From Alphaproteobacteria bacterium CG1_02_46_17 (GTDB taxonomy: Bacteria; Pseudomonadota; Alphaproteobacteria; Micavibrionales; Micavibrionaceae): a DNA stretch of 64,000 nt. Below are positions 47,341 through 63,498 of this stretch, piece after piece; position 1 is the first letter of the stretch, and every line of letters begins with the position of its first letter. The position numbers and the translations under genes are program-made. The notes under the pieces were generated by a model. The model saw only the letters and a list, made by a program, of their open reading frames with translations. It ran no database searches and was not told where the DNA came from. The stretch lies in the NCBI GenBank assembly GCA_001871905.1, contig MNUG01000019.1, positions 104,752-168,751 on the forward strand, read 5' to 3'.

Positions 47341-47869
47341 CTTGAGCCTCTTCTACGGCAGCCATTATCTTTTTCATGCCACGATGCGCCATAATCTTGA
47401 CGGACGACGCGCTGCGGCCTGTTTTCTTGCAGACTTCTTCAACGCTCATCTCTTGCAATTTCATCATTTCAATCACTTCCGCCTGAGCGCGTGGAATGAG
47501 TTTAAGCAGCGTTTTGACATCGTGCTTGGCACATTCGTCACGCTCATGTTCCTGCGAGGGGAATTCTTGATCTATTTCTAACTCGACATATTTTAAAGTT
47601 TTGCGCATATGGTCAATCCAGCGATGGCGCGCGATCGCCGCTATCCAGGGGCCAAAAGGATAGTTCAGGTCAAAAGTCTGTCGTTTGCTATGTAGCGTCA
47701 TTAACGTATCCTGTACCAAGTCCTCGACGGCGTTGCGGTGGATGCGTTTTCCAAAATAAGCCGTCAGCCATGGTCGAAGATCGGCCAGCAACAGATGGTA
47801 GGCGTTCTGGTCGCCCTTCAAGGCGGATCGCATCCATTCATCCCATCTATTGCTGTTATACGTTGTCAT
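47333..47869 (-). CDS. ECF RNA polymerase sigma factor (SigF/RpoQ type)
   Basis: 178 residues. Region 2 is at 25-90 (VEDLVQDTLMTLHSKRQTFD, then PFGPWIAAIARHRWIDHMRK), and region 4 at about 115-172 ends in an HTH (EMSVEEVCKKTGRSASSVK). It is the group paired with NrsF/DUF1109 anti-sigma factors. In Cupriavidus (RpoQ) and Caulobacter (SigF), such factors control bufferin genes. Here it is divergent from bufA, 183 bp away, with a matching promoter-like sequence between them. I infer that it drives the 48053-60832 array, possibly also itself. Confidence 0.9.
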   Translation of the reverse strand: MTTYNSNRWDEWMRSALKGDQNAYHLLLADLRPWLTAYFGKRIHRNAVEDLVQDTLMTLHSKRQTFDLNYPFGPWIAAIARHRWIDHMRKTLKYVELEIDQEFPSQEHERDECAKHDVKTLLKLIPRAQAEVIEMMKLQEMSVEEVCKKTGRSASSVKIMAHRGMKKIMAAVEEAQDD

Positions 47870-47905
47870 CGGTTGGCGGTTACATCCTCACGTAAAAAAA
47901 GTTTG

Positions 47906-47928: not shown

Positions 47929-47953
47929 GTAACCAGACCGTTAAGCGGACGTA
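47929..47953 (+). promoter_or_regulatory. Candidate ECF sigma promoter for the bufA operon
   Basis: GTAACC (47929-47934), a 15-nt spacer, then CGTA (47950-47953). This is the AAC-type -35 plus CG-type -10 arrangement of ECF promoters, close to the SigF-type consensus. It lies 100 bp upstream of bufA and opposite the ECF sigma gene. A second GTAACC, on the minus strand, lies just before the sigma factor start but is too near the ATG to serve as its promoter. Confidence 0.6.
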
Positions 47954-48052: not shown

Positions 48053-48313
48053 ATGAAACTCTCTAAATCCCTTATGACTGTCGCTGCTCTTGGTGCTTTC
48101 GTCGCAGGAGCCGCGCTTATGGCTCCCGACGCTCACGCCAAGGAAGGCTATGAAATGTGCGGCGGTATCGTCAAAGCTGGTCAGAACGACTGTAAAGGCA
48201 ATAGCCACAGCTGCGCGGGCCAAGCCAAGAAAGACGCTGATGCAATGGAGTTCGTTTATGTTCCGAACGGCACCTGCGATAAGATCGTCGGCGGTCACGT
48301 CATTAAGATGTAA
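48053..48313 (+). CDS. bufA: BufA1-type bufferin precursor (DUF2282)
   Basis: 86 residues. The signal peptide (1-29) ends in AHA. The mature peptide has four Cys at 36, 47, 54 and 75 in the pattern EMCGGIVKAGQNDC, HSCAGQ and NGTCDKI, which matches DUF2282. In this family the MNIO enzyme BufB, with BufC, turns two central cysteines into thiooxazole-like, copper-binding rings; the product buffers copper in the periplasm. Ribosome-binding site AGAGGAAAA. It starts the operon; bufB follows by 26 bp without terminator. Confidence 0.93.
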   Translation: MKLSKSLMTVAALGAFVAGAALMAPDAHAKEGYEMCGGIVKAGQNDCKGNSHSCAGQAKKDADAMEFVYVPNGTCDKIVGGHVIKM

Positions 48314-48339
48314 TCCACTTAAGTTCAGGAGTTCCCGCC

Positions 48340-49200
48340 ATGCAAAATCATATGCCCAAATTATCCGGAATCGGATTGCGTGCGCCGCATGTGCGGGAGC
48401 TTTTGGATTTAAAAGCGAATATTGGCTTTCTTGAGGCCCATTCAGAAAATTACTTCGGCGGCGGACAATCGCGTAAAATTTTGAAACAGATTTCTGAGAT
48501 GTATCCCGTCACGCTCCACGGCGTGGGGCTTTCTCTGGGCCGTGCCGATGGACTGGATCAGGAGCATATCCGGCAAATAAAATCTTTGGTTAATGAGATC
48601 AATCCTGTATTCGTTTCCGAGCATCTGACATGGAGTGGCTACAGCCATATCCATGTGCCAGACCTCCTGCCAATCCCGTTTATCAACGAAGCGTTGGATG
48701 TCTTCGCCGCGCATGTCAACGAATTCCAGGATAAGATCGGACGGCAAGTCCTCGTTGAGAACCCATCCAATTACCTAGCTTTTGCCAATCTCGATTACAC
48801 AGAAACAGAGTTTTTGAACTTGTTGGTAGAGCGCACGGGGTGCGGGCTTTTGCTCGACATAAACAATATCGCCGTCAGCGGTCATAACCTTGGCTACGAT
48901 CCCGTTACTTATATTGAGGGCATTGTTGCTGATGGCCGTGTGAAGCAATTCCATTTGGCTGGATATCAGGTCAACGACCTTGAAAACGGCGATAAGGTGT
49001 ATCTCGATACTCATGGCAAACCTGTTTATCCCGAAGTTTGGGATTTATATGTCCACGCTTTACGTCGTTTCGGTGATGTGCCAACCCTGATCGAATGGGA
49101 CACTGACATTCCTGCTCTTGATGTTCTGGTGCTTGAGGCTGCCAAGGCTGATGATGTCCGCGCCCGTATTAAAGGAGAACGTCATGACTGCGCTGCGTGA
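48340..49200 (+). CDS. bufB: BufB, MNIO-family (DUF692) peptide-modifying enzyme
   Basis: 286 residues, TIM-barrel MNIO (multinuclear non-heme iron oxidative) enzyme that modifies Cys residues of bufferins and other ribosomal peptides. Family motifs: IGLRAPHVRELL at the start, EHSENYFGGG-like HSENYF, TLHGVGLSLG, VSEHLTWSG, VENPSNYL, LLLDINNIAVSGHNLG, FHLAGY and EWDTDIPAL, which together carry the His, Asp and Glu iron ligands. It overlaps bufC by 17 bp, so the two are coupled. Confidence 0.95.
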   Translation: MQNHMPKLSGIGLRAPHVRELLDLKANIGFLEAHSENYFGGGQSRKILKQISEMYPVTLHGVGLSLGRADGLDQEHIRQIKSLVNEINPVFVSEHLTWSGYSHIHVPDLLPIPFINEALDVFAAHVNEFQDKIGRQVLVENPSNYLAFANLDYTETEFLNLLVERTGCGLLLDINNIAVSGHNLGYDPVTYIEGIVADGRVKQFHLAGYQVNDLENGDKVYLDTHGKPVYPEVWDLYVHALRRFGDVPTLIEWDTDIPALDVLVLEAAKADDVRARIKGERHDCAA

Positions 49201-49945
49201 TATACAAGCCGCTTTTATGCACGATATTTACACGGGCGAGCGTACAAGCGCGGGTTTTCTTGACCCCGCCATCGGCTCATCAGCAAGGTTGGATATTTAT
49301 TACAACAACACGCTGTTTGGCCTCACGGATGTTCTGGCCAACACATATTCTGTTTTGCAGAAAATCGTTGGTGAGGATTTTTTCAAAACAATCGCCCGTC
49401 ATTATTTGAAGGCTCACCCACAGCCTGCGGGAAACCGCCATCTGTTTGGCGGTCAATTATCGATTTTTCTTGGTAATTTTGAGTCTGCGGCAACCCTCCC
49501 TTATTTGCCTGACATTGCCGCGCTGGAATGGGCGCATTTTCAGGCGGGCATCGCCAATGATGCGGTAGCCATGGATTTTGCCACCCTCACAACCGCTATG
49601 TCTTCAGATACTTCTTTTGTCTTACCGTTGCATCCCAGTGTTCATGTGTGTCCCCAGACGTTCAATGCGCTTGAAATTTGGCAGGAGCATCAGAAAAAAG
49701 ACATCGGGGCCGTTCAACTCATATCACAGCCCCACACGCTCCTGATCTGGCGCGCGCCAGACAATACCGTTCTTATGCGGTGTATATCACTCCCTTTTAT
49801 AAGGCTATTGCAGTCGTGTCAGAAGAACACACCTTTTGTCGAAGCTGTGACGTTGGCAGGTGATGAGTTGTATAACGCGCAGGGATTTCAGAGGGAATTT
49901 GCCGAAGCCGTTTCTCTGGGCGTATTCGCCCATGGTCAAGGATAA
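49184..49945 (+). CDS. bufC: BufC, DUF2063-type partner of the MNIO enzyme
   Basis: 253 residues from the ATG at 49184 inside the end of bufB. The N-terminal half (LRDIQAAFMHDIYTGE, DIYYNNTLFGLTDVLANTY, AHPQPAGNRHLFGG) is the DUF2063 domain that presents the precursor peptide to the MNIO enzyme. The C-terminal half is less conserved. It acts with BufB on BufA. The next gene starts 5 bp later. Confidence 0.93.
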   Translation: MTALRDIQAAFMHDIYTGERTSAGFLDPAIGSSARLDIYYNNTLFGLTDVLANTYSVLQKIVGEDFFKTIARHYLKAHPQPAGNRHLFGGQLSIFLGNFESAATLPYLPDIAALEWAHFQAGIANDAVAMDFATLTTAMSSDTSFVLPLHPSVHVCPQTFNALEIWQEHQKKDIGAVQLISQPHTLLIWRAPDNTVLMRCISLPFIRLLQSCQKNTPFVEAVTLAGDELYNAQGFQREFAEAVSLGVFAHGQG

Positions 49946-49950
49946 GTATC

Positions 49951-50388
49951 ATGCAATGGAAATCTATTTTATCGATGGTGTCAGGGTCAATCGCAGGAGG
50001 CCTGGGTATCTTTGGTTTGTCTATCTGCTGTTTACCTGTAGCGGCAGGGTTTGCAGGCCTGTTGGGTGTTATCGCTGTGTTTTCTTATCATTATGCGACG
50101 TGGCTTTTGATTGTTGGGGCGCTTTCTTGGATGCTGAGCATTTTTCTGCTTTGGAAAAGACGTTTTCGCGCCGTCCTTTCTTCTCTTCTAACTTGTCCAG
50201 AATGTGGGTTTCAGAAAAAAGAAGATATGCCGCAGGATTCTTGTACCTATTTCTACGAATGCACGAAATGTCATGTTCAATTAAAACCAAAGAGCGGGGA
50301 TTGCTGTGTATTTTGTTCCTATGGCGATGTGCCATGCCCGCCTAAACAAAAAGAATGCGGATGTTCTGCAATTTTTAGAACCACATGA
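49951..50388 (+). CDS. MerT-like membrane protein with a Cys-rich GDCC-CSYG tail
   Basis: 145 residues with 13 cysteines. The N-terminal half has two or three hydrophobic helices with a vicinal pair Cys26-Cys27 in GLSICCLPVAAG, as in MerT/MerF mercury importers. The C-terminal half (81-140) has CPECGF, CTKCH and GDCCVFCSYGDVPCPP, a small domain known from mercury-resistance loci. The combination suggests thiol-based metal transport or handover. It sits between bufC and a DoxX gene, 5 and 12 bp away, a position not occupied in classical bufferin operons. Confidence 0.72.
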   Translation: MQWKSILSMVSGSIAGGLGIFGLSICCLPVAAGFAGLLGVIAVFSYHYATWLLIVGALSWMLSIFLLWKRRFRAVLSSLLTCPECGFQKKEDMPQDSCTYFYECTKCHVQLKPKSGDCCVFCSYGDVPCPPKQKECGCSAIFRTT

Positions 50389-50400
50389 AAGGACTTTCAA

Positions 50401-50838
50401 ATGATTAAGCACGCATGCGCCGTTATGTCCGGCCTCACCAGCAAGTCAAACTGGCTGCAATCAGCGGCCCTGCTGGCGGCGCGGCTTTGGATTGCCAAGA
50501 CGTTCTTGATGTCCGGCATGGTAAAGATCAAAAGCTGGGATTCGACCATCGCTCTTTTTACGGATGAATATAAAGTGCCAATCCTGCCGCCTGAAATTGC
50601 CGCCTATATGGCGACAGCAGCGGAATTATCCCTGCCAGTTCTGCTGGTGCTTGGCTTTATGACGCCGCTTGCCGCCTTGGGGCTTTTTGTCATGACCATG
50701 GTTATCGAATTGTTTATCTACCCAGGCACGACCGACCATTATCACTGGATGCTGCTCTTGGGAATTTTGATTACTCACGGCAGCGGAAAATTCGGGGCTG
50801 ATTACTGGCTGATCAAGCGCTTTTATAAAACGAGATAA
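50401..50838 (+). CDS. DoxX-family membrane protein
   Basis: 145 residues, four hydrophobic helices, with the DoxX start RLWIAKTFLMSGMVKIKSW and a helix near 95-120 rich in Phe, Met and Val. DoxX members occur in bufferin-type (gigPABT) operons, where the role is unknown; a quinone-linked or thiosulfate oxidation function is known for other members. Linked by 12-bp gaps on both sides. Confidence 0.85.
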   Translation: MIKHACAVMSGLTSKSNWLQSAALLAARLWIAKTFLMSGMVKIKSWDSTIALFTDEYKVPILPPEIAAYMATAAELSLPVLLVLGFMTPLAALGLFVMTMVIELFIYPGTTDHYHWMLLLGILITHGSGKFGADYWLIKRFYKTR

Positions 50839-50850
50839 GAAAGAAAACAC

Positions 50851-51957
50851 ATGTACATGCTTATCGCTTTTTCCCTGCTATTTTTCCTAAGTTTCGCCAA
50901 TGGAGCGAATGATGTCTCGAAGGCTGTGGCCACACTGGCTGGTGCTCGTGTGACTTCCGTCAAAAAAGCAGTGCTTTGGGGTACAGTATGGACAGCGGCG
51001 GGGGCAATGGCAGGATTGTTTTTGGGGGCTGACCTCATAAAAAATATGATGGGCAGTCTCTATCAGGTGCCTGCCGCAGCAGACGACATGGCTTTACCGT
51101 TGGCTGTTGCGCTTGCCGCTATATTCTGGGTCTTTCTTGCGACATGGCGAGGATGGCCCGTTTCGACCACACATGGGATTGTGGGCGGATTGATTGGAAG
51201 TGGTATTGTAGCACTTGGTTTTAACAACATATCATGGGGCGTTGCCGCTCATAAAATTTTATTGCCTTTGTTGTTCAGCTCCGTCATTGCCGTTGCGCTC
51301 GCATGGTTTCTAGGGCCGATCTTGCAAAGAGCGGCTAAACGCATCCACGGGTTTAAGATTTGCATCCCAGGCCTTCCGAAACCGGTTCTTGTTGCATCAT
51401 CCTCAACCAGCAATCGCTCCGCCGTAACCGTCGAGGACTGTGTTGTCTGCGATTGCGACAGCATTGAAGCTAAAGTAACTCCTGGCATTGTTGTTTCTGT
51501 CGATAGCCTGCATTGGTTGACAAGCGGGCTTCTATCACTGTCACGCGGATTGAATGATGCACCAAAGCTTATCGCTGTCGTGCTGCCGTTCATTGTCATG
51601 AACGATGCCCCCATGCAGGTATGGATGTTTATTGTCTCCGCAACAGCCATGACCCTGGGCGGCTTAATCGCGGGCAAGAAGATCACGGAGATTCTTGGTT
51701 TCAAGGTTACAAAAATGAACCACGAACAAGGGTTTTCAGCAAATATCATTGCTGCATTTCTGGTTATCGGTGCAAGCCGTTTCGGCCTACCTGTGTCCAC
51801 CACGCATGTATCAGCTTCGGCCATCATGGGGACAGGATTGGCGGCAAAGACAGGTCTCAATAAACAAGTTGTGATGAATATTGTCTTCGCATGGCTCGTC
51901 ACCGTTCCTTCGGCAGCTATGGCTGGGGCCGTCATTTATTGGGTGGCCAGTCTATGA
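50851..51957 (+). CDS. PiT-family inorganic phosphate transporter
   Basis: 368 residues. Both PiT repeats are visible: FANGANDVSKAVATLAGAR at the N-terminus and LSRGLNDAPKLI near 230, plus the PVSTTHG and PVSTTHVSASA loops. PiT imports metal-phosphate with H+ or Na+. The central loop contains VEDCVVCDCDS (Cys197, 200, 202), unusual for a PiT and suitable for binding As(III) or a thiophilic metal. In an arsenic gene set it could raise phosphate uptake to outcompete arsenate. It overlaps the next gene by 4 bp. Confidence 0.9.
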   Translation: MYMLIAFSLLFFLSFANGANDVSKAVATLAGARVTSVKKAVLWGTVWTAAGAMAGLFLGADLIKNMMGSLYQVPAAADDMALPLAVALAAIFWVFLATWRGWPVSTTHGIVGGLIGSGIVALGFNNISWGVAAHKILLPLLFSSVIAVALAWFLGPILQRAAKRIHGFKICIPGLPKPVLVASSSTSNRSAVTVEDCVVCDCDSIEAKVTPGIVVSVDSLHWLTSGLLSLSRGLNDAPKLIAVVLPFIVMNDAPMQVWMFIVSATAMTLGGLIAGKKITEILGFKVTKMNHEQGFSANIIAAFLVIGASRFGLPVSTTHVSASAIMGTGLAAKTGLNKQVVMNIVFAWLVTVPSAAMAGAVIYWVASL

Positions 51958-52643
51958 ACAAAACAATAATTAAAGCCGTTATCGCATTAGCCCTGGCAGG
52001 GATATTTATCGCTATCTGGCTGCTTGATCTTAGCCAATATTTGACCTTGGAAAACATGCGTACGCAACAAGCAGCACTCAAAGATTTTCAAGCCGCTCAG
52101 TCGTTTATTGTTAGCGGGATATTCTTTCTTGCCTATGTTGCGGTGGCGGCGCTTTCCTTACCTGGCGCTGTCATTATGACGCTTTTGGGCGGCGCATTAT
52201 TTGGCTTTTGGCAAGGGCTTGTGGTTGTGTCCTTTGCAAGCACCATCGGTGCAACGCTTGCATTTCTTCTAGCACGGTTTTTATTTCGAGATTGGATACA
52301 GGGTCGTTATCAGAAGCCATTAACAACGCTCAACGAAGGATTTAAAAATGAAGGCGTTTTTTATCTTTTTGCACTGCGCCTCATTCCCGTCTTTCCGTTT
52401 TTCCTTGTCAATATCCTGACCAGTGTTATGCCGATCAAAACCCGCCATTTCTACGGAGCCAGCCAGCTTGGCATGCTGCCTGGAACGGCAGTCTATGTGT
52501 ATGCTGGAACAGAACTTGGCAAACTTCAGTCGCTATCAGATATCGCATCGCCTCCCATGCTGGCTGCCTTTGTTCTGCTGGGCCTATTCCCGATCATTGC
52601 TAAAAAAATTATAGCCACCATCCGTGGCAGGAGAAGAAAATGA
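51954..52643 (+). CDS. TVP38/TMEM64-family membrane protein
   Basis: 229 residues from the ATG at 51954 (ATGA overlap with PiT). Hydrophobic helices lie near 7-25, 50-95, 100-125 and 195-215. The family core is visible in VAVAALSLPGAVIMTLLGGA, FGFWQGLVVV and LRLIPVFPFFLVNI (the DedA-like conserved segment). Members often stand beside or fuse to flavin disulfide reductases, as here; the pair may move a redox-active or thiol compound. Overlaps the next gene by 4 bp. Confidence 0.85.
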   Translation: MNKTIIKAVIALALAGIFIAIWLLDLSQYLTLENMRTQQAALKDFQAAQSFIVSGIFFLAYVAVAALSLPGAVIMTLLGGALFGFWQGLVVVSFASTIGATLAFLLARFLFRDWIQGRYQKPLTTLNEGFKNEGVFYLFALRLIPVFPFFLVNILTSVMPIKTRHFYGASQLGMLPGTAVYVYAGTELGKLQSLSDIASPPMLAAFVLLGLFPIIAKKIIATIRGRRRK

Positions 52644-54079
52644 GCAAATATGATTACAATATTATTGTTATCGGCGGCGGTTCTGCGGGGCTTGTTTCTT
52701 CCTACATTGCAGCGGCATTGAAAGCCAAAGTCGCATTGATCGAAAAGCATAAAATGGGTGGCGACTGCCTAAATACGGGCTGTGTCCCCAGCAAAGCATT
52801 GCTGCGATCGGCAAAAATGCTATCGTATGCGCGCCGTGCCGAGGAATTTGGGTTTAACAAAACTACAGTCGATTTTGACTTTGCTAAAGTAATGGAACGT
52901 GTTCAGAGTGTCATTTTGGCTATTGCGCCGCATGACTCTGTTGAACGTTATACGCAGCTCGGTGTTGAGTGTATCGAGGGCACAGCAAAAATCGTTGCAC
53001 CGCATCGTGTCGAGGTCAATGGTAAAACTCTGACCGCGCGTAGCATCATTGTGGCCACGGGTGCGCGCCCTATGGTTCCGCCCATTCCTGGCCTTGATAA
53101 AACAGACTATCTCACTAGTGATACAGTCTGGAATATACGCCAACGTCCGCAAAAGTTAGTCGTGCTGGGCGGCGGGCCGATTGGCGCGGAGATGGCACAA
53201 GCCTTCGCAAGGCTGGGATCGGAAGTCACCATCATTGAAATGGCACCGCATCTTCTCGTGCGCGAAGATGCGGAGGTGATTGAACTGGTCACAGAGCGTT
53301 TTCGCGCGGAAGGCATTCAGGTTTTGACCGATCACAAAGCAAAATCGTTTAAGATAGAGTCTGGACAAAAGATTTTGACTTGCGAGCATAATAGCAAAGA
53401 CGTCGGAATTCCTTTTGATCAGATCATCGTCGCTTTGGGACGGCAGGCGAATGTCAGCGGTTTTGGGCTTGAGGAATTGGGTGTTAAACTTTCCCCTCGT
53501 AAAACCATAGAGGCGGATGCTTTTCTGGAGACGAATGTTTCAGGCATCTATGTTTGTGGTGATGTCACGGGGCCATTTCAGTTTACTCATACCGCCGCAC
53601 ATCAGGCCTGGTACGCCAGTGTCAACGCGCTGCTTGCACCGTTTAAGCGTTTTAAGGTCGATTACCGCGTTATTCCATGGACGACCTTCACGGATCCTGA
53701 AGTTGCGCGCGTTGGCTTGAATGAGAAAGAAGCCAAGGAAAAAGGTATCCCTTACGAGGTAACGACCTATGGCATCGACGATCTGGATCGCGCCATTGCT
53801 GACAGCGAGGCGCATGGGTTCGTCAAAGTCCTGACGGTACCAGGAAAAGACAGAATTCTTGGCGTAACGATCGTCGGCACGCACGCAGGCGACATTATCC
53901 CCGAATTCATCCTTGCCATGAAGCATGGTCTGGGGCTGAATAAAATACTCGGCACGATCCACATCTACCCGACGCTTGGCGAGGCCAACAAATACGCGGC
54001 GGGAGTTTGGCGCAAGGCCCATGTGCCCAAATTCGGATTAAAATTAATGAAGATATTCCACGCATGGAGAAGGATGTAG
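52640..54079 (+). CDS. FAD-dependent pyridine nucleotide-disulfide oxidoreductase (mercuric-reductase-like)
   Basis: 479 residues. FAD-binding VIGGGSAGL near 10, redox pair Cys43-Cys48 in GGDCLNTGCVPSK, NAD(P)-binding VVLGGGPIGAEMAQAFARLG near 175, and dimer-interface HIYPTLGEA near 445 that supplies the catalytic His. It lacks the C-terminal vicinal Cys of MerA, ending in FHAWRRM, so mercury reduction is unlikely; it may be a general disulfide or thiol-metal reductase. Coupled to the TVP38 gene by ATGA and followed by arsS after 1 bp. Confidence 0.87.
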   Translation: MSKYDYNIIVIGGGSAGLVSSYIAAALKAKVALIEKHKMGGDCLNTGCVPSKALLRSAKMLSYARRAEEFGFNKTTVDFDFAKVMERVQSVILAIAPHDSVERYTQLGVECIEGTAKIVAPHRVEVNGKTLTARSIIVATGARPMVPPIPGLDKTDYLTSDTVWNIRQRPQKLVVLGGGPIGAEMAQAFARLGSEVTIIEMAPHLLVREDAEVIELVTERFRAEGIQVLTDHKAKSFKIESGQKILTCEHNSKDVGIPFDQIIVALGRQANVSGFGLEELGVKLSPRKTIEADAFLETNVSGIYVCGDVTGPFQFTHTAAHQAWYASVNALLAPFKRFKVDYRVIPWTTFTDPEVARVGLNEKEAKEKGIPYEVTTYGIDDLDRAIADSEAHGFVKVLTVPGKDRILGVTIVGTHAGDIIPEFILAMKHGLGLNKILGTIHIYPTLGEANKYAAGVWRKAHVPKFGLKLMKIFHAWRRM

Positions 54080-54080
54080 A

Positions 54081-55073
54081 ATGGACGGAAGTTTGTATAA
54101 AACAAGCCGCTTTGGGGAAACGCTTGGGCGTCATGGTCTGCAAATCAAACGTGAGTGCATCACAACCTTGCAGATCAATATCGGCAAACGCTGTAATCAA
54201 GCGTGCCACCATTGCCATGTCGAATCTGGGCCGAACCGCACAGAGAATATGGAACGGAAGACAGTTGATAGGATCCTTGAGCTTTTACAGGATGAGCCAA
54301 AAATTACACTTATTGATATCACGGGCGGCGCGCCGGAGATGAACCCGCATTTTCGTGATTTTGTCAAAGCTCTTCGCGCCATGAGCAAGGATGTCATTGA
54401 CCGTTGTAATCTGACAGTTCTCTTTGAAAAAGGACAAGAGGATACGGCGGAATTTTTAGCCGAGCAGCGCATACAGGTTGTTGCCTCGCTGCCGTGCTAC
54501 CTGGAAGATAATGTCAATGCTCAGCGCGGCAAGGGGGTGTTTGGTAAAAGTATTACAGCTTTGGAAAAACTGAACGCTCTTGGATACGGCAAGCCTGATT
54601 CAGGTCTCGTACTTAACCTTGTTTATAATCCTATCGGCACGCATTTGCCACCAGAACAGAAAAAGCTGGAAGCGGCGTATCGAGAGCATCTGCAAAAGCA
54701 TTTTGGTATCGTCTTTAATAATCTGTTCACAATCACGAATATGCCCATCAAGCGTTTTGCCCATATGCTAGAGCGCGATGGTCTGGCCGAACAATATATG
54801 CAGCTCTTGATCGATAGCTTCAATGTCCAGGCTGTGCAGGAAGTGATGTGCAAGCAGCTTGTCTCGATTAGTTGGGATGGAAAACTTTACGACTGTGATT
54901 TTAACCAGATGCTGGAAATTCCGTTGAATTTTAAGCCGCGAACGATTTGGGACATCTCGTCGTTTTCGACGCTTGATCAAGACATCGCCTTTGCCGACCA
55001 TTGCTTTGGATGCACGGCGGGCGCAGGCAGTTCCTGCACGGGAGCATTATTAAAAGAAGGAAAAAAGGCATGA
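54081..55073 (+). CDS. arsS: Arsenosugar biosynthesis radical SAM protein ArsS
   Basis: 330 residues. The radical SAM cluster motif is CNQACHHC (Cys38, 42, 45). A C-terminal extension carries HCFGCTAGAGSSC, the DUF3641 cysteine set typical of ArsS (TIGR04167). ArsS transfers a 5'-deoxyadenosyl group to dimethylarsinous acid, giving the precursor of oxo-arsenosugars. It starts 1 bp after the flavin reductase stop and overlaps arsM by 4 bp, as expected for a biosynthesis pair. Confidence 0.92.
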   Translation: MDGSLYKTSRFGETLGRHGLQIKRECITTLQINIGKRCNQACHHCHVESGPNRTENMERKTVDRILELLQDEPKITLIDITGGAPEMNPHFRDFVKALRAMSKDVIDRCNLTVLFEKGQEDTAEFLAEQRIQVVASLPCYLEDNVNAQRGKGVFGKSITALEKLNALGYGKPDSGLVLNLVYNPIGTHLPPEQKKLEAAYREHLQKHFGIVFNNLFTITNMPIKRFAHMLERDGLAEQYMQLLIDSFNVQAVQEVMCKQLVSISWDGKLYDCDFNQMLEIPLNFKPRTIWDISSFSTLDQDIAFADHCFGCTAGAGSSCTGALLKEGKKA

Positions 55074-56122
55074 CATCAGCTACGCAAACCATACAAAAGA
55101 ATGTTCAGGAATATTATGGAGAAACCCTGAAGGGAAGCTCCGACCTTAAAACCAGTGCCTGCTGCCCGATTGACGCAATACCGCAGCATTTAAGACCTCT
55201 GCTGGGAAGGGTGCATACGGAAGTGCAGGAAAAATTTTATGGCTGCGGCTCCCCAATCCCACAAGCCCTCGAAGGTATGACTGTCCTCGATCTGGGTTGC
55301 GGCACGGGACGCGATGTCTACATGCTCTCTCAGCTTGTTGGCAGCACGGGAAAAGTCATCGGTGTTGACATGACCGAAGCACAGCTGGCTGTGGCAAGAC
55401 AACATATCGACTATCACATGGGGGCTTTTGACTATGAGAAGCCGAATGTGGAATTTCACCATGGCTATATTGAGGATTTAAAATCTCTTGGCATTGCCGA
55501 TGCTTCGGTTGATGTCGTGGTCTCGAATTGCGTTATCAATCTTTCGGCCAATAAGGAGGCTGTATTTCGTGAGATTTTTCGAGTCCTAAAACCAGGTGGA
55601 GAACTTTATTTTTCGGATGTTTTTGCAGGGCGACGTGTGCCAGAGCATTTGCAGCATGATCAGGAAGTGTTGGGCGAATGTCTGGGGGGTGCGCTGTATA
55701 TCGAAGATTTTCGGCGCATGCTTCGTAATATCGGCTGTCTTGATTACCGTATGATGAGTAAAGGCCGTATTGCCCTGAACGACCCTATCATTGAACAGAA
55801 GGTCGGCATGATCGATTTTTATTCGATTACTGTACGTGCTTTCAAAAGTGATTTTGAAGATATCTGCGAGGATTACGGTCATGTTGTCACTTACAAAGGC
55901 ACGATTTCCGAAACCCCGCATGCTTTCCGCCTTGATGATCATCACCTCTTTAAAACGGGCATGCCGGAACGGGTCTGCGGCAACACCCTGAAAATGTTGG
56001 CTGAGACACGATTTGCAAAGCATTTCACTGTCATCGGGGATTTTTCAACGCATTACGGCGTGTTTGATTGTGCGCCATCCACAGGAACCGGAAGCAGCGC
56101 GCCCGCAGGCGCGTGCTGTTAA
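55070..56122 (+). CDS. arsM: Arsenite S-adenosylmethionine methyltransferase ArsM
   Basis: 350 residues from the ATG at 55070. The SAM site is VLDLGCGTGRDVYMLS; As(III)-binding candidates are Cys31-Cys32 (SACCPID), YGCGSPIP, VSNCVINLS and GECLGGALY. ArsM makes mono-, di- and trimethyl arsenic. The arrangement with arsS and the C-terminal Cys-Cys (ending GACC) fit the arsenosugar-linked subgroup. Ends 13 bp before the phosphorylase gene. Confidence 0.9.
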   Translation: MTSATQTIQKNVQEYYGETLKGSSDLKTSACCPIDAIPQHLRPLLGRVHTEVQEKFYGCGSPIPQALEGMTVLDLGCGTGRDVYMLSQLVGSTGKVIGVDMTEAQLAVARQHIDYHMGAFDYEKPNVEFHHGYIEDLKSLGIADASVDVVVSNCVINLSANKEAVFREIFRVLKPGGELYFSDVFAGRRVPEHLQHDQEVLGECLGGALYIEDFRRMLRNIGCLDYRMMSKGRIALNDPIIEQKVGMIDFYSITVRAFKSDFEDICEDYGHVVTYKGTISETPHAFRLDDHHLFKTGMPERVCGNTLKMLAETRFAKHFTVIGDFSTHYGVFDCAPSTGTGSSAPAGACC

Positions 56123-56135
56123 GAAAGGAAATATC

Positions 56136-56981
56136 ATGCTTGGCATCATTGGCGGGACTGGCTTTTATAAACTTGAGGGGCTGGAAGTTATCGAGGAGAT
56201 TGATGCGGATACGCCTTTCGGGAAGCCGTCCGCCCCTTTGGCGCGGGTGCGTTATGCGGATAAGGAAGTCATTTTCTTGCCACGACACGGCGCACGGCAT
56301 CAATTTTTGCCCCACGAGGTGAATTATCGCGCCAATATCTATGCGTTGAAGCAAGCTGGCATTCGTCAGATCGTCGGATTTTCAGCCATTGGTAGTTTGC
56401 GAGAAGACATCGCGCCTGGTGAGTTTGCTATACCGGAGCAATACATCGATTGGGTAAAAGATGGTCGCGTAAAGACATTTTTCGGCAGTGGAATCGCCGC
56501 GCATGTTTCGACAGCAAAACCCGTTTGTTCGAACCTCACACAAGCGCTTGCCGATGCGGCTCAACGAATAAACACCAAGCTTCATACCGGAAAAACCTAT
56601 ATCTGCGTGGACGGTCCGCGCCTTGGAACGCAGGCTGAAAGTCATTTCTTTCGCCAGATTGGAGGCGACCTTGTCGGCATGACCAATGTGCCGGAGGTAT
56701 TTTTGGCACGCGAAGCTCAGATCTGCTACGCCACGGTCGGCATCGCTACGGATTACGACTGCTGGAAGGAAGACCCAGCTGATCACGCTGATACCGCCAC
56801 CATCATCGCGCGGTATGGCGCAAGCCTTGTCAAAGCCAATGCGATGCTTAAGTCTTTTTTGGAAGCGCCACTTCCGAAAGCTGATCCGCTCATTCGTGAG
56901 AACTTGAGGGGTGCGATTATGACGCCTGACGAGACTTTATCAACGCAGGCACTCGATATGCTCACGGTTTTGAGGGCGTGA
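56136..56981 (+). CDS. 5'-methylthioadenosine / nucleoside phosphorylase, probably arsenosugar pathway
   Basis: 281 residues, ATG at 56136. Family segments: IIGGTGFYKLEGLEV, PRHGARHQFLPHEVNYRAN, YICVDGPRLGTQAES and GMTNVPEVFLAREAQ, with the substrate-site Asp in ATDYDCW. It fits the MTA-phosphorylase group. In arsenosugar gene sets a phosphorylase can remove adenine from 5'-deoxy-5'-dimethylarsinoyl-adenosine, leaving an arsinoyl-ribose-1-phosphate for transfer. Housekeeping methionine salvage is the alternative role, but the position argues for arsenic. Confidence 0.85.
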   Translation: MLGIIGGTGFYKLEGLEVIEEIDADTPFGKPSAPLARVRYADKEVIFLPRHGARHQFLPHEVNYRANIYALKQAGIRQIVGFSAIGSLREDIAPGEFAIPEQYIDWVKDGRVKTFFGSGIAAHVSTAKPVCSNLTQALADAAQRINTKLHTGKTYICVDGPRLGTQAESHFFRQIGGDLVGMTNVPEVFLAREAQICYATVGIATDYDCWKEDPADHADTATIIARYGASLVKANAMLKSFLEAPLPKADPLIRENLRGAIMTPDETLSTQALDMLTVLRA

Positions 56982-56985
56982 TTTC

Positions 56986-57675
56986 GTGAAATTATCCGTC
57001 ATCATTCCTTTGGCCATACAAGAACAAGCATGGAAGAGCTTGCTTCCCGATCTTGCCCATTTGCCGCCGAACAGCGAGATCATCCTAGCGTTACCCGAAG
57101 GTGCGCCGCATCTTGAGATTGTTGTACCGCATCCATGGATGACGATCAGACAAGTGAGTGAAGGCACAGGCCGCGCAGCGCAGATGAATGCCGCCGCACA
57201 CGGGGCCGAAGGTACACAATTGTGGTTTCTCCATGCGGATTCCCGTCTACGCGAAGATACCATCCCCGCCTTGCTGCGCAGACTTAGGCAATATCCTGAC
57301 TGGCTTTTATACGGTGATTTGAAATTTCTCTCCGATGCTACACACTTGATGAAAATCAACGAGATCGGTACATGGGTTCGGTCGCGCGTTCTTGGTATGC
57401 CCTTTGGCGATCAAGGTCTTTGCATCCGCAAGAAGCTTTTTCATGACATCGGCGGCTATCCTGAAAATGTGGCCTATGGTGAAGATCATGTCTTTGTCTG
57501 GCGCGCACGTGGGCGCGGGATTAAATTGCGCCCGATCGAAGCTCCTATCTATACGAGCGCCAGAAAATATCGAGACCGTGGTTGGCTGAAGACGACCATT
57601 CGCCATGTGACGTTAACCTATAAGCAGGCATGGCCTGAGTTTTGTCGTCTTGTGTTCCGGCGCGGTGCCGCATGA
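56986..57675 (+). CDS. Arsenosugar-type GT2 glycosyltransferase (TIGR04283-like)
   Basis: 229 residues from a GTG at 56986 (GAGG upstream). GT-A fold: LSVIIPLAI at the start, GRAAQMNAAAHGAEG near 65, FLHADSRL (the DxD-like metal site), and GDQGLCIRKKLF near 140. This pattern matches the glycosyltransferase family often found beside arsS. Acceptor unknown; glycerol or a lipid head group is plausible. It overlaps the next gene by 4 bp. Confidence 0.86.
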   Translation: MKLSVIIPLAIQEQAWKSLLPDLAHLPPNSEIILALPEGAPHLEIVVPHPWMTIRQVSEGTGRAAQMNAAAHGAEGTQLWFLHADSRLREDTIPALLRRLRQYPDWLLYGDLKFLSDATHLMKINEIGTWVRSRVLGMPFGDQGLCIRKKLFHDIGGYPENVAYGEDHVFVWRARGRGIKLRPIEAPIYTSARKYRDRGWLKTTIRHVTLTYKQAWPEFCRLVFRRGAA

Positions 57676-58352
57676 CAGGCGCACTCGCCATTTTTGCCAA
57701 AACGCCAGGGCTGTCTCCGATCAAGACCCGCCTTGCTGTGGACATCGGCATACCAAAAGCTGAGCAGTTTTATCTGCATAGCGTTCAATGTCTTGAAGCC
57801 CTTGCTTTAAGGGTTGTTGAGGCAACTGGTGGTGACCTTGTGCCCTATTGGGCAGTCGGAGAAGAAAACGGACTTGATTGTCCGCTCTGGCAAAATATGG
57901 ATCGTTTATGGACAGGTGCTGGAGGATTGGGCGAACGGCTGGATCACGTCTATTCATCTCTTCTTAAGAAACATGATCACGTTATTCTTATTGGAACTGA
58001 TAGTCCCCAATTGCAGCCCGATATTCTGATTGCGGCGCACCAACACCTAAGGACAAAGACAGGCCATGTTATCGGCCCCGCAGAGGATGGCGGTTATTAT
58101 CTTTACGGTGGTCACGAGCCTCTGCCACACGATTTATGGCTTTCTGTTCCCTACAGTGTTTCCACCACATGCAATATTTTTGTTGAAAAGCTCACTTCCC
58201 ACGGAAGGGTGCATTTTCTTCAAATGGATTTTGACGTTGATATGTCTGATGACCTGAGGAAGTTACTCAAGAGAAAAGATGATATGAAAACAAAGCCCCA
58301 GAGAGAACTCTTGGCGTGGCTTGCTTCGATAGAGGAGAATGCTCAGTGCTAG
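57672..58352 (+). CDS. DUF2064 / TIGR04282-like arsenosugar glycosyltransferase
   Basis: 226 residues from the ATG at 57672. GALAIFAKTPGLSPIKTRLA near the start and IGTDSPQLQPDIL near 116 are the signature of this nucleotidyltransferase-like GT-A family, which accompanies arsS. GPAEDGGYYLYGG near 147 is also conserved. It could activate or transfer the arsinoyl-ribose. It ends 7 bp past the next gene's start, so the two overlap. Confidence 0.86.
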   Translation: MTGALAIFAKTPGLSPIKTRLAVDIGIPKAEQFYLHSVQCLEALALRVVEATGGDLVPYWAVGEENGLDCPLWQNMDRLWTGAGGLGERLDHVYSSLLKKHDHVILIGTDSPQLQPDILIAAHQHLRTKTGHVIGPAEDGGYYLYGGHEPLPHDLWLSVPYSVSTTCNIFVEKLTSHGRVHFLQMDFDVDMSDDLRKLLKRKDDMKTKPQRELLAWLASIEENAQC

Positions 58353-58954
58353 ATTCAACGGTTAGAAAGTTGATAGATCCAACCCTCAATACCATTGCCA
58401 GGTTGCTGGCAAAATGTGGCATTGGCGCTAATACACTAACGATCATTGGCTTTATTTTTTCTGTCTTAGGTTTTATCACGGTTGCTTTTCAAGCATATGG
58501 TCTGACAATTTTATTTATTGCCTTAAGTAGAACGATGGATGGGTTGGATGGGCCTTTAGCACGGCAAACAAAAGCAACTGATTTCGGCGGTTATCTCGAT
58601 ATCGTTCTCGATTTTATATTCTATGCTGGAACTGTTTTCTTTTTTGCTGTGGGGCAACCAAGCTTCGCATTGCCAGCTGCCTTTCTTATTTTCAGTTTTA
58701 TGGGGACAGGAAGTTCTTTCTTAGCCTACGCAATTATGGCAGAAAAACACGATATAAATCACGATAAGCAGGGTAAAAAATCTTTTTTCTATTTGCAAGG
58801 TCTCACAGAAGGCACGGAAACGATATTGGTCATCATTCTGATATGTTTTTTTCCAAGCCACTTTGATTGGATCGCTTACATATTCGGTGCGTTGTGTTGG
58901 CTGACAACCATCGGCAGGATTCGTCAGGCTGCAAAAGACTTTAAAGATATATAG
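58346..58954 (+). CDS. CDP-alcohol phosphatidyltransferase
   Basis: 202 residues from a GTG at 58346 (GAGGAG at 58332-58337). The family motif is complete: DGLDGPLARQTKATDFGG followed by YLDIVLDF, i.e. DG..AR..G...D...D. Five or six hydrophobic helices. The enzymes transfer a phosphatidyl group from CDP-diacylglycerol to an alcohol. Within this operon the natural alcohol acceptor is an arsenosugar-glycerol, giving arsenosugar phospholipid; a role in normal phospholipid synthesis is less likely because of the context. Confidence 0.86.
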   Translation: MLDSTVRKLIDPTLNTIARLLAKCGIGANTLTIIGFIFSVLGFITVAFQAYGLTILFIALSRTMDGLDGPLARQTKATDFGGYLDIVLDFIFYAGTVFFFAVGQPSFALPAAFLIFSFMGTGSSFLAYAIMAEKHDINHDKQGKKSFFYLQGLTEGTETILVIILICFFPSHFDWIAYIFGALCWLTTIGRIRQAAKDFKDI

Positions 58955-58966
58955 ATGGGAGAATGC

Positions 58967-59722
58967 ATGAATACACGTTTTAAAGTTTTCTTGGGGCTGT
59001 TGCTCTTTTTTCTATTTTCACTTTCTGCTTCAATGGTATCGGCAGCAGATACGTATGCCGCACCTTATGATGCTCTTTTGCATCAATATGTGCACCAAGG
59101 AACCAAGGTTGGAATCACGGCAAATCTTGTTGATTACGGCGCATGGGCGCAAGACCAACGCCACGCGCAAGCGATGGACGCTCTTGTCAAGACGGATCCA
59201 TTTAAACTTTCCTCAGCTGAGGCAAAGGTGTTCTGGATCAATACCTATAACCTGCTGACGATAGATTTGATTGTCAAAAATCCTGATATTGAAAGCATCA
59301 AGGATCTGGGAACGCTTCTACAAAGCCCTTGGAAAGCGCATTCATGGGAGATTGCCGGAAAGAAATACACCCTCGACGATATTGAGCATGGCATCCTGCG
59401 CAAAATGAAAGATCCGCGCATTCACATGGCCATTGTCTGTGCATCGCTTTCTTGCCCAGATATTCGTAACGAGGCCTATCAAACGAAAACTTTGGATTCC
59501 CAGCTGGACGATCAGGCACGAAAGTTTCTAGTCAATTCGACGAAGGGATTAAAAGGCACACCATCTGGCCTGATGCTTTCACCGATCTTTAAATGGTTTT
59601 CTGAGGATTTTGGCGGCGAGAAAGGCGTTTTAGTCTTTGTGAGAAAATACGGTTCTATATCTTCCGACGACAAAAATATAAATGATTATTTCGACTACGA
59701 TTGGAGCCTGAATAAGCCATGA
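58967..59722 (+). CDS. DUF547 exported protein
   Basis: 251 residues from the ATG at 58967 with GGGAG upstream. Signal peptide ending in VSAADT. DUF547 segments: AKVFWINTYNLLTIDLIV near 84, YTLDDIEHGILRKM near 130, and HMAIVCASLSCPDIRNEAY with conserved cysteines near 155. The fold is transglutaminase-like; a Cys near 160 and nearby His may be catalytic. The biological role is unknown. Its stop overlaps arsC (ATGA). Confidence 0.85.
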   Translation: MNTRFKVFLGLLLFFLFSLSASMVSAADTYAAPYDALLHQYVHQGTKVGITANLVDYGAWAQDQRHAQAMDALVKTDPFKLSSAEAKVFWINTYNLLTIDLIVKNPDIESIKDLGTLLQSPWKAHSWEIAGKKYTLDDIEHGILRKMKDPRIHMAIVCASLSCPDIRNEAYQTKTLDSQLDDQARKFLVNSTKGLKGTPSGLMLSPIFKWFSEDFGGEKGVLVFVRKYGSISSDDKNINDYFDYDWSLNKP

Positions 59723-60225
59723 CATCCGTCCATACGCCTCCCTTCAAGGTTCTCTTTTTGTGCACGGCGAATTCCGCGCGAAGCATTCTGTCCGAAGCCT
59801 TGCTGCGCCACGAGGGAAAGGAGCGTTTCCAGTCTTTCAGCGCGGGCAGTAAACCTTCGAGTAAAGTCAATCCTGTCGCCGTCCAACTTCTTGCTATGCG
59901 CGGTATCCCGATTGATGGATTAAGCAGCAAAAGCTGGCATATATTTGAAGGAGAGAGTGCACCGCAGATGGACTTCGTATTCACCGTATGCGGCAATGCA
60001 CGCGATGAGGAATGCCCCGTCTGGCCTGGACATCCTGTCACGGCACATTGGGGTATTTCTGATCCTGCAGCTGTCACAGGAAGTGATGTAGAGCGTCTCG
60101 CTGCATTCGAGAGTGCCTATGCCCTTCTGCAAAAGAAAATCCGCATGCTCATTGCATTACCCCTTGAAAATATGTCGGATTCCGAACGGCGTGCCGCCTG
60201 CAAAGATATAGGAGATATCCTTTGA
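59719..60225 (+). CDS. arsC: Thioredoxin-dependent arsenate reductase ArsC (LMW-PTP type)
   Basis: 168 residues. The CX5R loop is CTANSARS (Cys15 to Arg21). A second pair, CGNARDEEC (Cys91-Cys99), matches the cysteine relay of thioredoxin-dependent ArsC. It reduces As(V) to As(III), the substrate of ArsM. No arsR, arsB or acr3 is adjacent. Its stop overlaps the start of the outer-membrane gene. Confidence 0.93.
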   Translation: MTSVHTPPFKVLFLCTANSARSILSEALLRHEGKERFQSFSAGSKPSSKVNPVAVQLLAMRGIPIDGLSSKSWHIFEGESAPQMDFVFTVCGNARDEECPVWPGHPVTAHWGISDPAAVTGSDVERLAAFESAYALLQKKIRMLIALPLENMSDSERRAACKDIGDIL

Positions 60226-60824
60226 AAGGAATCGAACGCTTAACGTTAAAGGTCAACTTTCTTCTGGCGCTAATCGTCCTCTTGCCGACCTCAGTGCAGG
60301 CATCAAATAAGGTGTCCAGTCCTGACGTTACCAAGGACAAAGTCGAGCTTGAATATCGCGGCGGGTACGATATTGACGAGGATGATAATAAAGACGGCAA
60401 CCAGCTTCATAAATTTGTGGCTAATTACGGCCTGACGGATCGATGGAGAATGGAAACTAAGGGCATTTTAGCCGAGAGCAGTAAAGGTTATGATTGGACA
60501 GCTTTGGAATGGTCAAACAGGTTTCAGATTCTTAAAGGGGATGAAGGGCTTCCTAAACTTTCCATCCAGGGCAATTACAAATTTTCTCTTCAATCGGGAA
60601 AGCCTGACAAGTTCGAAGCCACGGTTTTAATGAGTAAAGACATGGGATCGTTGACCCATGTCACGAACATCAACTTTGAGAATGAGGTTGGATCATATGC
60701 CAAGGATGGTACAGATTTTAATGTGAGATGGAAAACAAAATATCGTTACCGACCATCTTTCGAGCCTGGTGTGGAGCTGTTCATGGACTTTGGCAAGTTC
60801 GGAACGGAGACGTCTGGCCCTAGA

Positions 60825-60832
60825 AAATATCA
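60825..60832. repeat. Left target-site duplication of the IS66 element
   Basis: AAATATCA, repeated exactly at 63491-63498. Eight bp is the standard IS66 duplication length. Confidence 0.95.
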
Positions 60833-60854
60833 GTAAGCGTCCGGTGACGACCGC
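60833..60854. repeat. Left terminal inverted repeat of IS66
   Basis: 22 bp, perfect match to the reverse complement of 63469-63490; begins GTAAGCGTCCGGTGACG. Confidence 0.96.
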
Positions 60855-60886
60855 CTACCGCGCTCATTAGTAATGATGCAAGGTAT

Positions 60887-60906
60887 CGATAGGCCCCCAC
60901 CTAAAA
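60887..60906. repeat. Left copy of a 20-bp direct repeat inside IS66
   Basis: CGATAGGCCCCCACCTAAAA also occurs at 63419-63438 in the same orientation. Both lie just inside the termini and could bind the transposase or give internal deletion. Confidence 0.9.
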
Positions 60907-60924
60907 ATAAGCGGGCACCTAACG

Positions 60925-61383
60925 ATGCATATTGAAGAGAACAAACCTATTTCCGTGAGAGAAGCGAACCGGCAACGACAGATGTTGCTGGCTGGAGAGC
61001 CGCGCCGCCGGTACAGCCTGGATTTCAAGCTGAAGGTTTTGGAAGAGGCGGCAGCGCCGGGTGCCTCGGTTGCAGGGATCGCGCTGCGGCACCGGATGAA
61101 TACGAATGTGATATTCCGCTGGCGGCGGATGCTGCGTGATGGATGTCTGACGGGCCCGTCGGAGCAAGCGCTGTTGCCAGCGCCGAGCAATTTTATCCCT
61201 GTGCATGTGATGGACGAAGCACCTGCGCAGGACGATCGTGTGCAGATTGAAACCGGGCCGCGTGATGCTGGCGATGGGGCGATGGAGATTGTCTTGCCCT
61301 CGGGGGCCACCATTCGGGCATGGGCCGATGTTGATGAGAGGGCTCTGGCGCGGGTGCTGGGTGTGGTGCGTGACCGGGCATGA
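60925..61383 (+). CDS. tnpA: IS66 accessory protein TnpA
   Basis: 152 residues. RRRYSLDFKLKVLEEA and GVAGIALRHRMNTNVIFRWR-like sequence form a Tnp_1-type helix-turn-helix, followed by a variable linker and VLPSGATIRAWADVD at the end, typical of IS66 OrfA. It overlaps tnpB by 4 bp (ATGA), so translation is coupled. Confidence 0.93.
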   Translation: MHIEENKPISVREANRQRQMLLAGEPRRRYSLDFKLKVLEEAAAPGASVAGIALRHRMNTNVIFRWRRMLRDGCLTGPSEQALLPAPSNFIPVHVMDEAPAQDDRVQIETGPRDAGDGAMEIVLPSGATIRAWADVDERALARVLGVVRDRA

Positions 61384-61733
61384 TGAAGCTTCCGGCCAAT
61401 ACGAGGGTTTATCTCTCGTGCCGCACCACTGATATGCGCAAAGGCTTTGAGGGCTTGGCGGCGGAGGCCAAGCACGTTCTTCACGCCGATCCCTTCAGCG
61501 GCCATCTGTTCGTGTTCCGGGGCAAGCGCGGGGACTATGTGAAGATCCTGTACTGGGATGGCACGGGGATGTGTCTGTTTGCCAAACGACTTGAAAAATC
61601 ACGCTTCGTGTGGCCGCCGATTGTGGATGGCGGATTGCAGATCAATACGGCGCAGCTGGGGATGTTGCTGGAGGGGATGGACTGGCGGCGAACGGTGATG
61701 CCCGAGGCACCGCGCGTGCCGGTGTATGCGTGA
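61380..61733 (+). CDS. tnpB: IS66 accessory protein TnpB
   Basis: 117 residues, normal for IS66 OrfB. Diagnostic sequence: YLSCRTTDMRKGFEGLAAEA at the start, GHLFVFRGKRGDYVKILYWD and FAKRLEKSRFVWP. Required for efficient transposition, with unknown molecular role. Confidence 0.96.
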   Translation: MMKLPANTRVYLSCRTTDMRKGFEGLAAEAKHVLHADPFSGHLFVFRGKRGDYVKILYWDGTGMCLFAKRLEKSRFVWPPIVDGGLQINTAQLGMLLEGMDWRRTVMPEAPRVPVYA

Positions 61734-61814
61734 TTTTATGATGGCTCATAAAAGAATCGAAAGCGGCCCAACAACGAAAACACATTGCCGGTGCTGCCTG
61801 CTATAATTTTTAGC

Positions 61815-63404: not shown

Positions 63405-63418
63405 AAACCCGGAAGCAC

Positions 63419-63438
63419 CGATAGGCCCCCACCTAAAA
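63419..63438. repeat. Right copy of the 20-bp direct repeat inside IS66
   Basis: Same sequence and orientation as 60887-60906. Here an AGGTGG follows, so the right copy can also form a short hairpin with its own CCACCT. Confidence 0.9.
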
Positions 63439-63468
63439 TAGGTGGATACCTATCAATGCATCGCTGAT

Positions 63469-63490
63469 GCGGTCGTCACCGGACGCTTAC
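63469..63490. repeat. Right terminal inverted repeat of IS66
   Basis: 22 bp, ends CGGACGCTTAC, perfect partner of the left end. Confidence 0.96.
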
Positions 63491-63498
63491 AAATATCA
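63491..63498. repeat. Right target-site duplication of the IS66 element
   Basis: AAATATCA, identical to 60825-60832; confirms a transposition event rather than a rearrangement. Confidence 0.95.

Follow-up and report, generated by a model that had tools for sequence, protein, structure and literature searches.

We report here that in the stretch of DNA analysed (64,000 nt of Alphaproteobacteria bacterium CG1_02_46_17, contig MNUG01000019.1, positions 104,752-168,751; hereafter the window) a run of plus-strand genes at 48053-60836 joins a bufferin cluster with an arsenosugar pathway. Our comparisons of gene content, control sites, linkage and phylogeny make it probable, though well short of certain, that this run is one sigma-F-type metal-stress transcription unit and one case of a recurrent composite of copper buffering with arsenate-to-arsenosugar conversion. 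That several unrelated bacteria carry the pairing suggests that the two functions go together. Searching the literature by title and the opening of abstracts we found no description of a bufferin-arsenosugar pairing, nor does the available text of PMC8224329 or PMC8719888 describe one, and the statement in a first-pass annotation of this DNA that no account of both modules in one unit was known holds to that extent. The divergent control genes, their motifs and the operon, in gene order, comprise:

46702..47340, minus strand: NrsF-family anti-sigma factor (Pfam NrsF 103.8 bits, cut-off 26.8), cysteines 129 and 180
47336..47869, minus strand: extracytoplasmic function (ECF) sigma factor, sigF-like (Pfam Sigma70_r2 and r4_2)
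47859..47883, minus strand: sigma-F-type motif GTAACC-N15-CGTA at the sigma gene (motif scan)
47929..47953, plus strand: sigma-F-type motif GTAACC-N15-CGTA before bufA (motif scan)
48053..48313, plus strand: bufA, Buf1-type precursor with four cysteines and, by eye, a signal-peptide-like N-terminus (Pfam DUF2282, 76.8 bits)
48340..49200, plus strand: bufB, MNIO bufferin maturase (NF050167, MNIO_BufB, 333.8 bits, cut-off 310)
49184..49945, plus strand: bufC, DUF2063 partner protein (Pfam DUF2063, 57.1 bits)
49951..50388, plus strand: GDCCVxC-domain membrane protein, MerT-like by eye, with vicinal cysteines (NF041374, 99.5 bits, cut-off 40)
50401..50838, plus strand: doxX (Pfam DoxX, 66.5 bits)
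50851..51957, plus strand: PiT-family phosphate (arsenate?) transporter (Pfam PHO4, 235.2 bits), beside arsS elsewhere
51954..52643, plus strand: TVP38/TMEM64 protein (Pfam VTT_dom), adjoining arsS in many loci
52640..54079, plus strand: FAD-dependent disulfide reductase, MerA-like (Pfam Pyr_redox_2), next to TVP38 near arsS elsewhere
54081..55073, plus strand: arsS, radical SAM enzyme of arsenosugar synthesis (TIGR04167, 461.7 bits, cut-off 300)
55070..56122, plus strand: arsM-like arsenite methyltransferase (PRK11873, 189 bits, cut-off 263; NF038099, 118.5 bits, cut-off 400)
56136..56981, plus strand: MTAP-like nucleoside phosphorylase (TIGR01694, 282.6 bits, cut-off 274.85)
56986..57675, plus strand: TIGR04283-type glycosyltransferase (160.9 bits, cut-off 182)
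57672..58352, plus strand: TIGR04282-type glycosyltransferase (119.5 bits, cut-off 134)
58346..58954, plus strand: CDP-alcohol phosphatidyltransferase (Pfam CDP-OH_P_transf, 48.3 bits)
58955..59722, plus strand: DUF547 protein (Pfam DUF547, 96.8 bits)
59719..60225, plus strand: arsC-like arsenate reductase of the low-molecular-weight-phosphatase type (Pfam LMWPc; TIGR02691, 78.7 bits, cut-off 174.3)
60222..60836, plus strand: orfZ, no family match, interrupted by an IS66 element (60832 is the last native position before the element and 63491 the first after it)

The first-pass annotation had counted 15 genes with gaps of 1-26 bp, at least six ATGA-type overlaps and no terminator. Counting the junctions from the sequence we find two genes more, 17 co-directional frames, and the tight spacing is borne out, with gaps of 0-26 bp and the largest between bufA and bufB. 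Eight junctions overlap in all, but only five of them by ATGA, the others by TTGA (one) and by 17 and 7 nt (two further pairs). A terminator scan returned 25 sites, above the 15.8 ± 3.9 of shuffled sequences, and those on the plus strand lie inside coding sequence; a weak one in the last part of the GDCCVxC gene (50356-50370) could attenuate transcription before doxX. Sigma-70-like sites are rarer than in shuffled sequence (10 versus 18.4).

The first part of the unit has the composition of a Buf1-type cluster, in that a four-cysteine DUF2282 precursor is followed by an MNIO maturase scoring over its curated cut-off, a DUF2063 protein and DoxX, and the early assignment of bufA-bufB-bufC plus DoxX is confirmed by these family matches. 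Its product is predicted from the families to be an MNIO-modified periplasmic copper binder. The GDCCVxC membrane protein has no Pfam match, and tblastn finds relatives of it near arsS at two other loci (L161, 37%; L168, 58%). For the single arsenosugar enzymes other than ArsS the roles given here are presumed ones. ArsS itself, cited in PMC12159101 as the radical SAM enzyme that adenosylates arsenic in arsenosugar synthesis, scores well over its family cut-off. The set from arsS to arsC described in the first-pass annotation is indeed present. Its text names neither PiT, TVP38 nor the FAD reductase, which we assign to the arsenosugar part because they lie beside arsS elsewhere, for example on an Acinetobacter portensis plasmid. 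ArsM falls under both of its cut-offs; tblastn segments of it in arsS loci are 49% (Acinetobacter), 58% (Rhodanobacter) and 53% (Pseudogulbenkiania) identical. Both glycosyltransferases are likewise under their cut-offs, yet TIGR04283 and TIGR04282 are the best family match of each. The CDP-alcohol phosphatidyltransferase has no tblastn match (E 1e-4) in the loci compared. The end product of the pathway would be an arsenosugar, perhaps a lipid.

Divergent from the operon lies the sigma/NrsF pair (46702-47869), on which the first-pass annotation is also silent. An ECF sigma gene stands here beside an NrsF-family protein with two conserved cysteines. The latter reaches 56.9 bits against the cut-off of 300 of the NCBIfam equivalog for anti-sigma-F, and we regard it as a relative of the anti-sigma-F NrsF, a claim of orthology going beyond these scores. 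The true start of the sigma factor is probably Met13 (47833), because the minus-strand -10 element overlies the annotated start. The pattern GTAACC-N15/16-CGWA matches exactly twice in the window where 0.16 matches are expected, and one of 100 shuffles reached two; both copies carry the identical deviation (N15, CGTA), and no further copy occurs within the operon. The nearest characterised parallel is in Caulobacter crescentus, in which, according to the available text of PMC3511200 and PMC8224329, sigF-nrsF adjoins a bufferin operon (CC3254-3257; DUF2282-DUF692-DUF2063-DoxX), with the consensus GTAACC-N16-CGAA and an NrsF cysteine pair, C131 and C181, that matters for keeping the system off (PMC3511200). 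The window shares the sigma/NrsF arrangement and the cysteine pair, has a variant of the GTAACC promoters with a 15-base spacer and CGTA, and differs also in an extra GDCCVxC gene before doxX; arsenosugar genes are not named for the Caulobacter operon in that text. In the window's own order GTAACC-N16-CGAA stands near the bufA start in five of nine BufB loci (L114, L115, L116, L119 and L121 among L113-L121).

By analogy with Caulobacter, we propose that a thiol-reactive metal or metalloid would disturb NrsF, a membrane protein, at its pair of conserved cysteines, and that the released ECF sigma factor would then transcribe its own gene and the operon from the paired GTAACC-N15-CGTA sites, whose motifs are observed and whose promoter activity we infer. 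To judge by the families, the first part would supply a bufferin, modified by the MNIO enzyme, to take up copper in the periplasm; arsenate may enter through PiT, be reduced by ArsC and be methylated by ArsM, after which ArsS would add a deoxyadenosyl group, the phosphorylase would remove the adenine and the two glycosyltransferases would build the arsenosugar. A phospholipid form is possible because a CDP-alcohol transferase is present. Read in this way, copper would be a signal for arsenic processing in this organism, and the bufferin need not touch arsenic at all.

ArsS exceeds the family cut-off in one of 95 genomes of relatives (the window's own) and in three of 385 of the class, own included, and in 0/10 genomes of the same genus; for BufB the count is 36 of 91 relatives, again with the window's own genome among them, and the other ten genomes of the genus have none. 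Further afield, alignment of ArsS to genome contigs gave at least 590 stretches that encode relatives, of which the best 80 were kept, many ending at contig ends; among these best 80, four have buf genes near arsS (L066, L069, L070 and L092); of six further loci, the one on plasmid p1 of Cupriavidus sp. KK10 (L024) has them too. The arrangement is thus not unique to the window's strain; uniqueness, which the first-pass annotation had named as fatal to its reading, is ruled out by the linked loci elsewhere.

We measured linkage in 399 genomes of one betaproteobacterial order, that of the Rubrivivax metagenome-assembled genome (MAG) of L070 (G489), taken as the one centre and with one control family. 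ArsS is present in 119 of them (123 places) and BufB, at E<=1e-60, in 193. Among the places listed, BufB lies within 10.5 kb of ArsS at eight loci in seven genomes (G489, G643, G844, G739 twice, G638, G867 and G543), where counts and genome sizes predict 0.52 (P 8e-8 for loci, 1e-6 for genomes; without the centre genome, six genomes against 0.50, P 1.4e-5), and within 6.5 kb at six loci in five genomes against 0.32 (P 1e-6 and 2e-5), although both limits were picked after the pairs had been seen. Pairs split across contigs are invisible to such a test. In 20 genomes with an unlisted BufB, the ArsS loci, followed up to about 9.5 kb each way, had no buf genes. G857, with BufB and ArsS 33 kb apart on one contig, was left out of the linked count, and G476, the holder of the ArsS nearest to the window's (L032), has its BufB on another contig without arsenosugar genes. 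A side observation is that G487 (Pseudogulbenkiania) has three BufB places of equal score (370.1 bits; contigs C13, C34 and C36), two at identical coordinates, which may be duplication or an assembly artefact.

Such figures have to be weighed against the idea that the two modules meet on metal-resistance islands by chance and gene transfer and are coupled only by habitat, which we think unlikely but which several observations favour. The island is absent from the same-genus genomes, an IS66 element lies beside it, the KK10 copy sits on a plasmid, another linked locus (L157) holds a mer set, and 11 of 13 linked loci lack the GTAACC motif before bufA. The control family speaks the other way: the arsenite exporter Acr3, present in 191 of the same genomes, comes within 10 kb of BufB in a single pair among the Acr3 places listed and the same listed BufB places (G673, by eye, where there is also an arsC-like match), as opposed to the eight loci for ArsS. 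The recurrence of a tight one-strand order across several lineages also argues against chance meeting.

Five gene orders make up these one-strand composites (the window, KK10, G739, G638 and G543). On the KK10 plasmid nrsF-sigF is divergent from bufA-bufB-bufC-doxX, followed by a 368-aa protein, PiT, ArsM, a CMD protein, ArsS, the FAD reductase, TVP38, both glycosyltransferases, the phosphorylase, a second radical SAM protein and DUF547, with GTAACC-N16-CGAA at position 8295 before bufA. KK10 and the window are therefore alike in the divergent control pair, in having buf first and then PiT, and in continuing with arsenosugar genes on one strand; they diverge further on, since the arsenosugar part is differently ordered, KK10 has the CMD, second radical SAM and 368-aa proteins in addition, and its unit lacks arsC, the GDCCVxC gene and the CDP-alcohol transferase. 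The KK10 NrsF (L024:6945-7595) is without the second conserved cysteine, which may alter what it senses. A second KK10 locus gave bufB-bufC-doxX matches and no sigF, bufA or arsenosugar matches in the 30 kb read, and plasmid pBB1 of the related C. necator N-1 carries sigF-nrsF/bufABC-doxX with no arsenosugar genes in the 30 kb read, so that the two Cupriavidus strains offer a natural comparison. In G739 (L154; L155 is similar) the order is doxX-bufA-bufB-bufC-ECF sigma-zf-HC2-arsS-TVP38-FAD reductase-glycosyltransferase-glycosyltransferase-ArsM-PiT; this genome has two copies of the composite, each with the ECF sigma-like gene between bufC and arsS. In G638 (L156) it is arsS-TVP38-FAD reductase-glycosyltransferase-glycosyltransferase-DUF3047-ArsM-aquaporin-bufABC-doxX, and in G543 (L158) bufABC-doxX-HD protein-TVP38-FAD reductase-C92 peptidase-like-DUF3047-glycosyltransferase-glycosyltransferase, then about 0.9 kb of uncertain frame and arsS-ArsM. 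G867 (L157) is on one strand except for the mer set (L157:3786-6783; FAD reductase, HMA, MerT and an opposite-strand MerR) between its modules.

The phylogeny suggests that the BufB-ArsS linkage is partly inherited and partly repeated. We built a tree of 62 BufB proteins, 13 of them linked and 49 not. The linked label requires eight gains or losses on it, at least six of them forced by well-supported branches, and linked BufBs fall in about six places: the window's, which groups with BufBs from other families in the window's order (support 100/96); KK10 and G739, with the unlinked KK10 copy L220; G638 and G867, with the unlinked G840; G543, G643, G844, G489 and G488, along with three unlinked BufBs; G487; and L162, on a long branch. 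ArsS of the window has different nearest kin, namely one MAG from the Burkholderiaceae (L032, 70%) and one from the deltaproteobacteria (L033), a grouping that is moderately supported (SH-aLRT 78 and 86, then 72). Because BufB groups with its own order and ArsS with L032 and L033, the likeliest history of the window's composite is that an arsenosugar module was acquired and joined, within the window's own lineage, to a buf operon of native type. For the same reason a single mobile cassette passed between lineages is not favoured for the window, with the caveat of the moderate ArsS support and of an ArsS tree that alone forces only three label changes.

Several points weigh against a single regulated and recurrent unit, beside the choice of distance limits after the fact. 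Our case is built on sequence, and transcription is deduced from layout and motifs. BufB is present in 60 of the 119 ArsS genomes against 193 of 399 overall, which is no enrichment at the level of genomes, and linkage is a minority state, with none seen in 112 of the 119. On the BufB tree the linked label is clustered (eight changes against 12.0 in shuffles, with 3/500 as low) and its changes could be losses, and the ArsS tree, as said, forces few. The mer genes separate the modules in L157, buf is on the opposite strand from arsS in L152, L153 and L159-L161, and at L162 the BufB match is only 37% identical and no BufA match occurs. The arsM, arsC and both glycosyltransferase matches are under curated NCBIfam cut-offs. 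The window's motif is off that of Caulobacter by one base of spacing and one letter, and before bufA the GTAACC motif is found in only two of the 13 linked loci, the window and KK10. Since the other 11 have no such motif there, they must use other promoters; a sigma-F motif common to all composites is rejected, and sigma-F control is not the feature that the other composites share. The neighbourhoods of L152, L154 and L160 contain other ECF sigma-like genes, and we observed that L160 (G488) has two divergent GTAACC-N16-CGAA motifs (L160:9507-9538) beside an nrsF-like frame between its arsS and bufferin genes. The joint control proposed in the first-pass annotation accordingly fits the window, through its gene spacing, its one motif before bufA and the like composite of KK10, but gives no general rule; its common response to thiophilic elements agrees with the NrsF cysteines, whose counterparts are needed in Caulobacter, and meets the same limit in the 11 loci. 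Selection for joint expression under metal stress nonetheless appears the most economical reason for the pairing, because several BufB lineages, with different gene orders, have the modules close together.

A closer tie would make the bufferin a working part of the arsenosugar pathway, through periplasmic arsenic binding or copper exclusion, which we consider doubtful; if true, a ribosomally synthesized and post-translationally modified peptide (RiPP) metallophore and an organoarsenic pathway would form one functional system. In the first form, which strikes us as improbable, the MNIO-modified bufferin would serve the arsenic pathway as a periplasmic binder of As(III) or of methylated arsenic in its trivalent state; the first-pass annotation, too, suggested binding of As(III) or a methylated arsenic. 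Trivalent arsenic binds thiols, and such a role would lead one to expect bufferin genes to be joined again and again to ArsS and far less often to Acr3, as is seen. Linked BufA proteins, however, have the usual set of four cysteines and divide between two subtypes, both of which also occur away from arsS (at L162 no BufA was found), and an arsenic-specific signature was not found by eye in a comparison of 12 linked with 30 unlinked BufA matches. Bufferins are moreover described as copper chelators in the available text of PMC12452194. Arsenic binding is thus possible but unsupported, the BufA sequence giving no sign of it. The second form, to which we give the least credence, has the bufferin shield ArsS, an iron-sulfur enzyme, and ArsM, with its thiol chemistry, from copper, which would let arsenosugar synthesis go on when both copper and arsenic are present. 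The CxxxCxxC motif of ArsS, the several cysteines of ArsM and the linkage with ArsS rather than Acr3 are in its favour, while the bufferin would be periplasmic and the enzymes cytoplasmic.

Among known systems, the A. portensis plasmid cluster (NCBI annotation) resembles the window in arsS, TVP38/FAD reductase, DUF547, both glycosyltransferases, the methyltransferase, PiT and mtnP; no bufferin genes are annotated or were found there, and the window adds arsC and the CDP-alcohol phosphatidyltransferase. The bufferin side is matched by a gold-, silver- and copper-induced cluster of Cupriavidus metallidurans, which we take to be the one named gigPABT. This has the same kind of four-gene core and is metal-induced, without effect on copper resistance there, and unlike the window's composite it is presented with no mention of arsenosugar genes in the available text of PMC8224329. 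The same source has copper inducing the sigF regulon of Caulobacter, a sigF mutant being copper-sensitive, and also inducing arsH and an arsenate reductase. A survey of MNIO clusters, in the portion available (PMC12452194), counts sigma, NrsF and DoxX as common companions of bufferin genes and puts other conserved genes at extremely low proportions, and 'arsen' is absent from its main text. Unrelated genes were included there only up to 10 bp away, and the window's doxX-PiT gap is 12 bp. The recurrent pairing in unrelated lineages ties bufferin roles beyond copper to the purpose and regulation of bacterial arsenosugars, and raises the questions of whether a sigma-F/NrsF switch that answers copper and cadmium in Caulobacter turns on arsenosugar synthesis, and whether a buf deletion changes arsenic handling.

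Upstream, 41597-44335 encodes by eye a P-type ATPase-like protein that is 97% identical in G004, of the same genus, in surroundings that are not common to the two, which suggests a variable region. When 60 kb of G004 was read for an empty site, only the P-type ATPase at 41.3-44.3 kb and a short neighbouring piece matched, and the left edge of the island is for that reason undefined. Downstream the native sequence is broken and then continues with genes convergent to the operon:

60833..63490, plus strand: IS66 element with inverted ends, intact-looking (Pfam TnpB_IS66, DDE_Tnp_IS66)
Window 63606 onward, past the window end (L030:18358-19155 and L030:19164-19817), minus strand: fatty-acid-hydroxylase/sterol-desaturase and DUF3047 genes

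The stop codon of orfZ lies within IS66, so that its end is not natural, and the element is flanked by an 8-bp target duplication, AAATATCA, at 60825-60832 and 63491-63498. Both kinds of gene recur near arsenosugar genes elsewhere: sterol desaturases accompany arsS in Thiodictyon and Acinetobacter, and the clusters of G638 and G543 include DUF3047.

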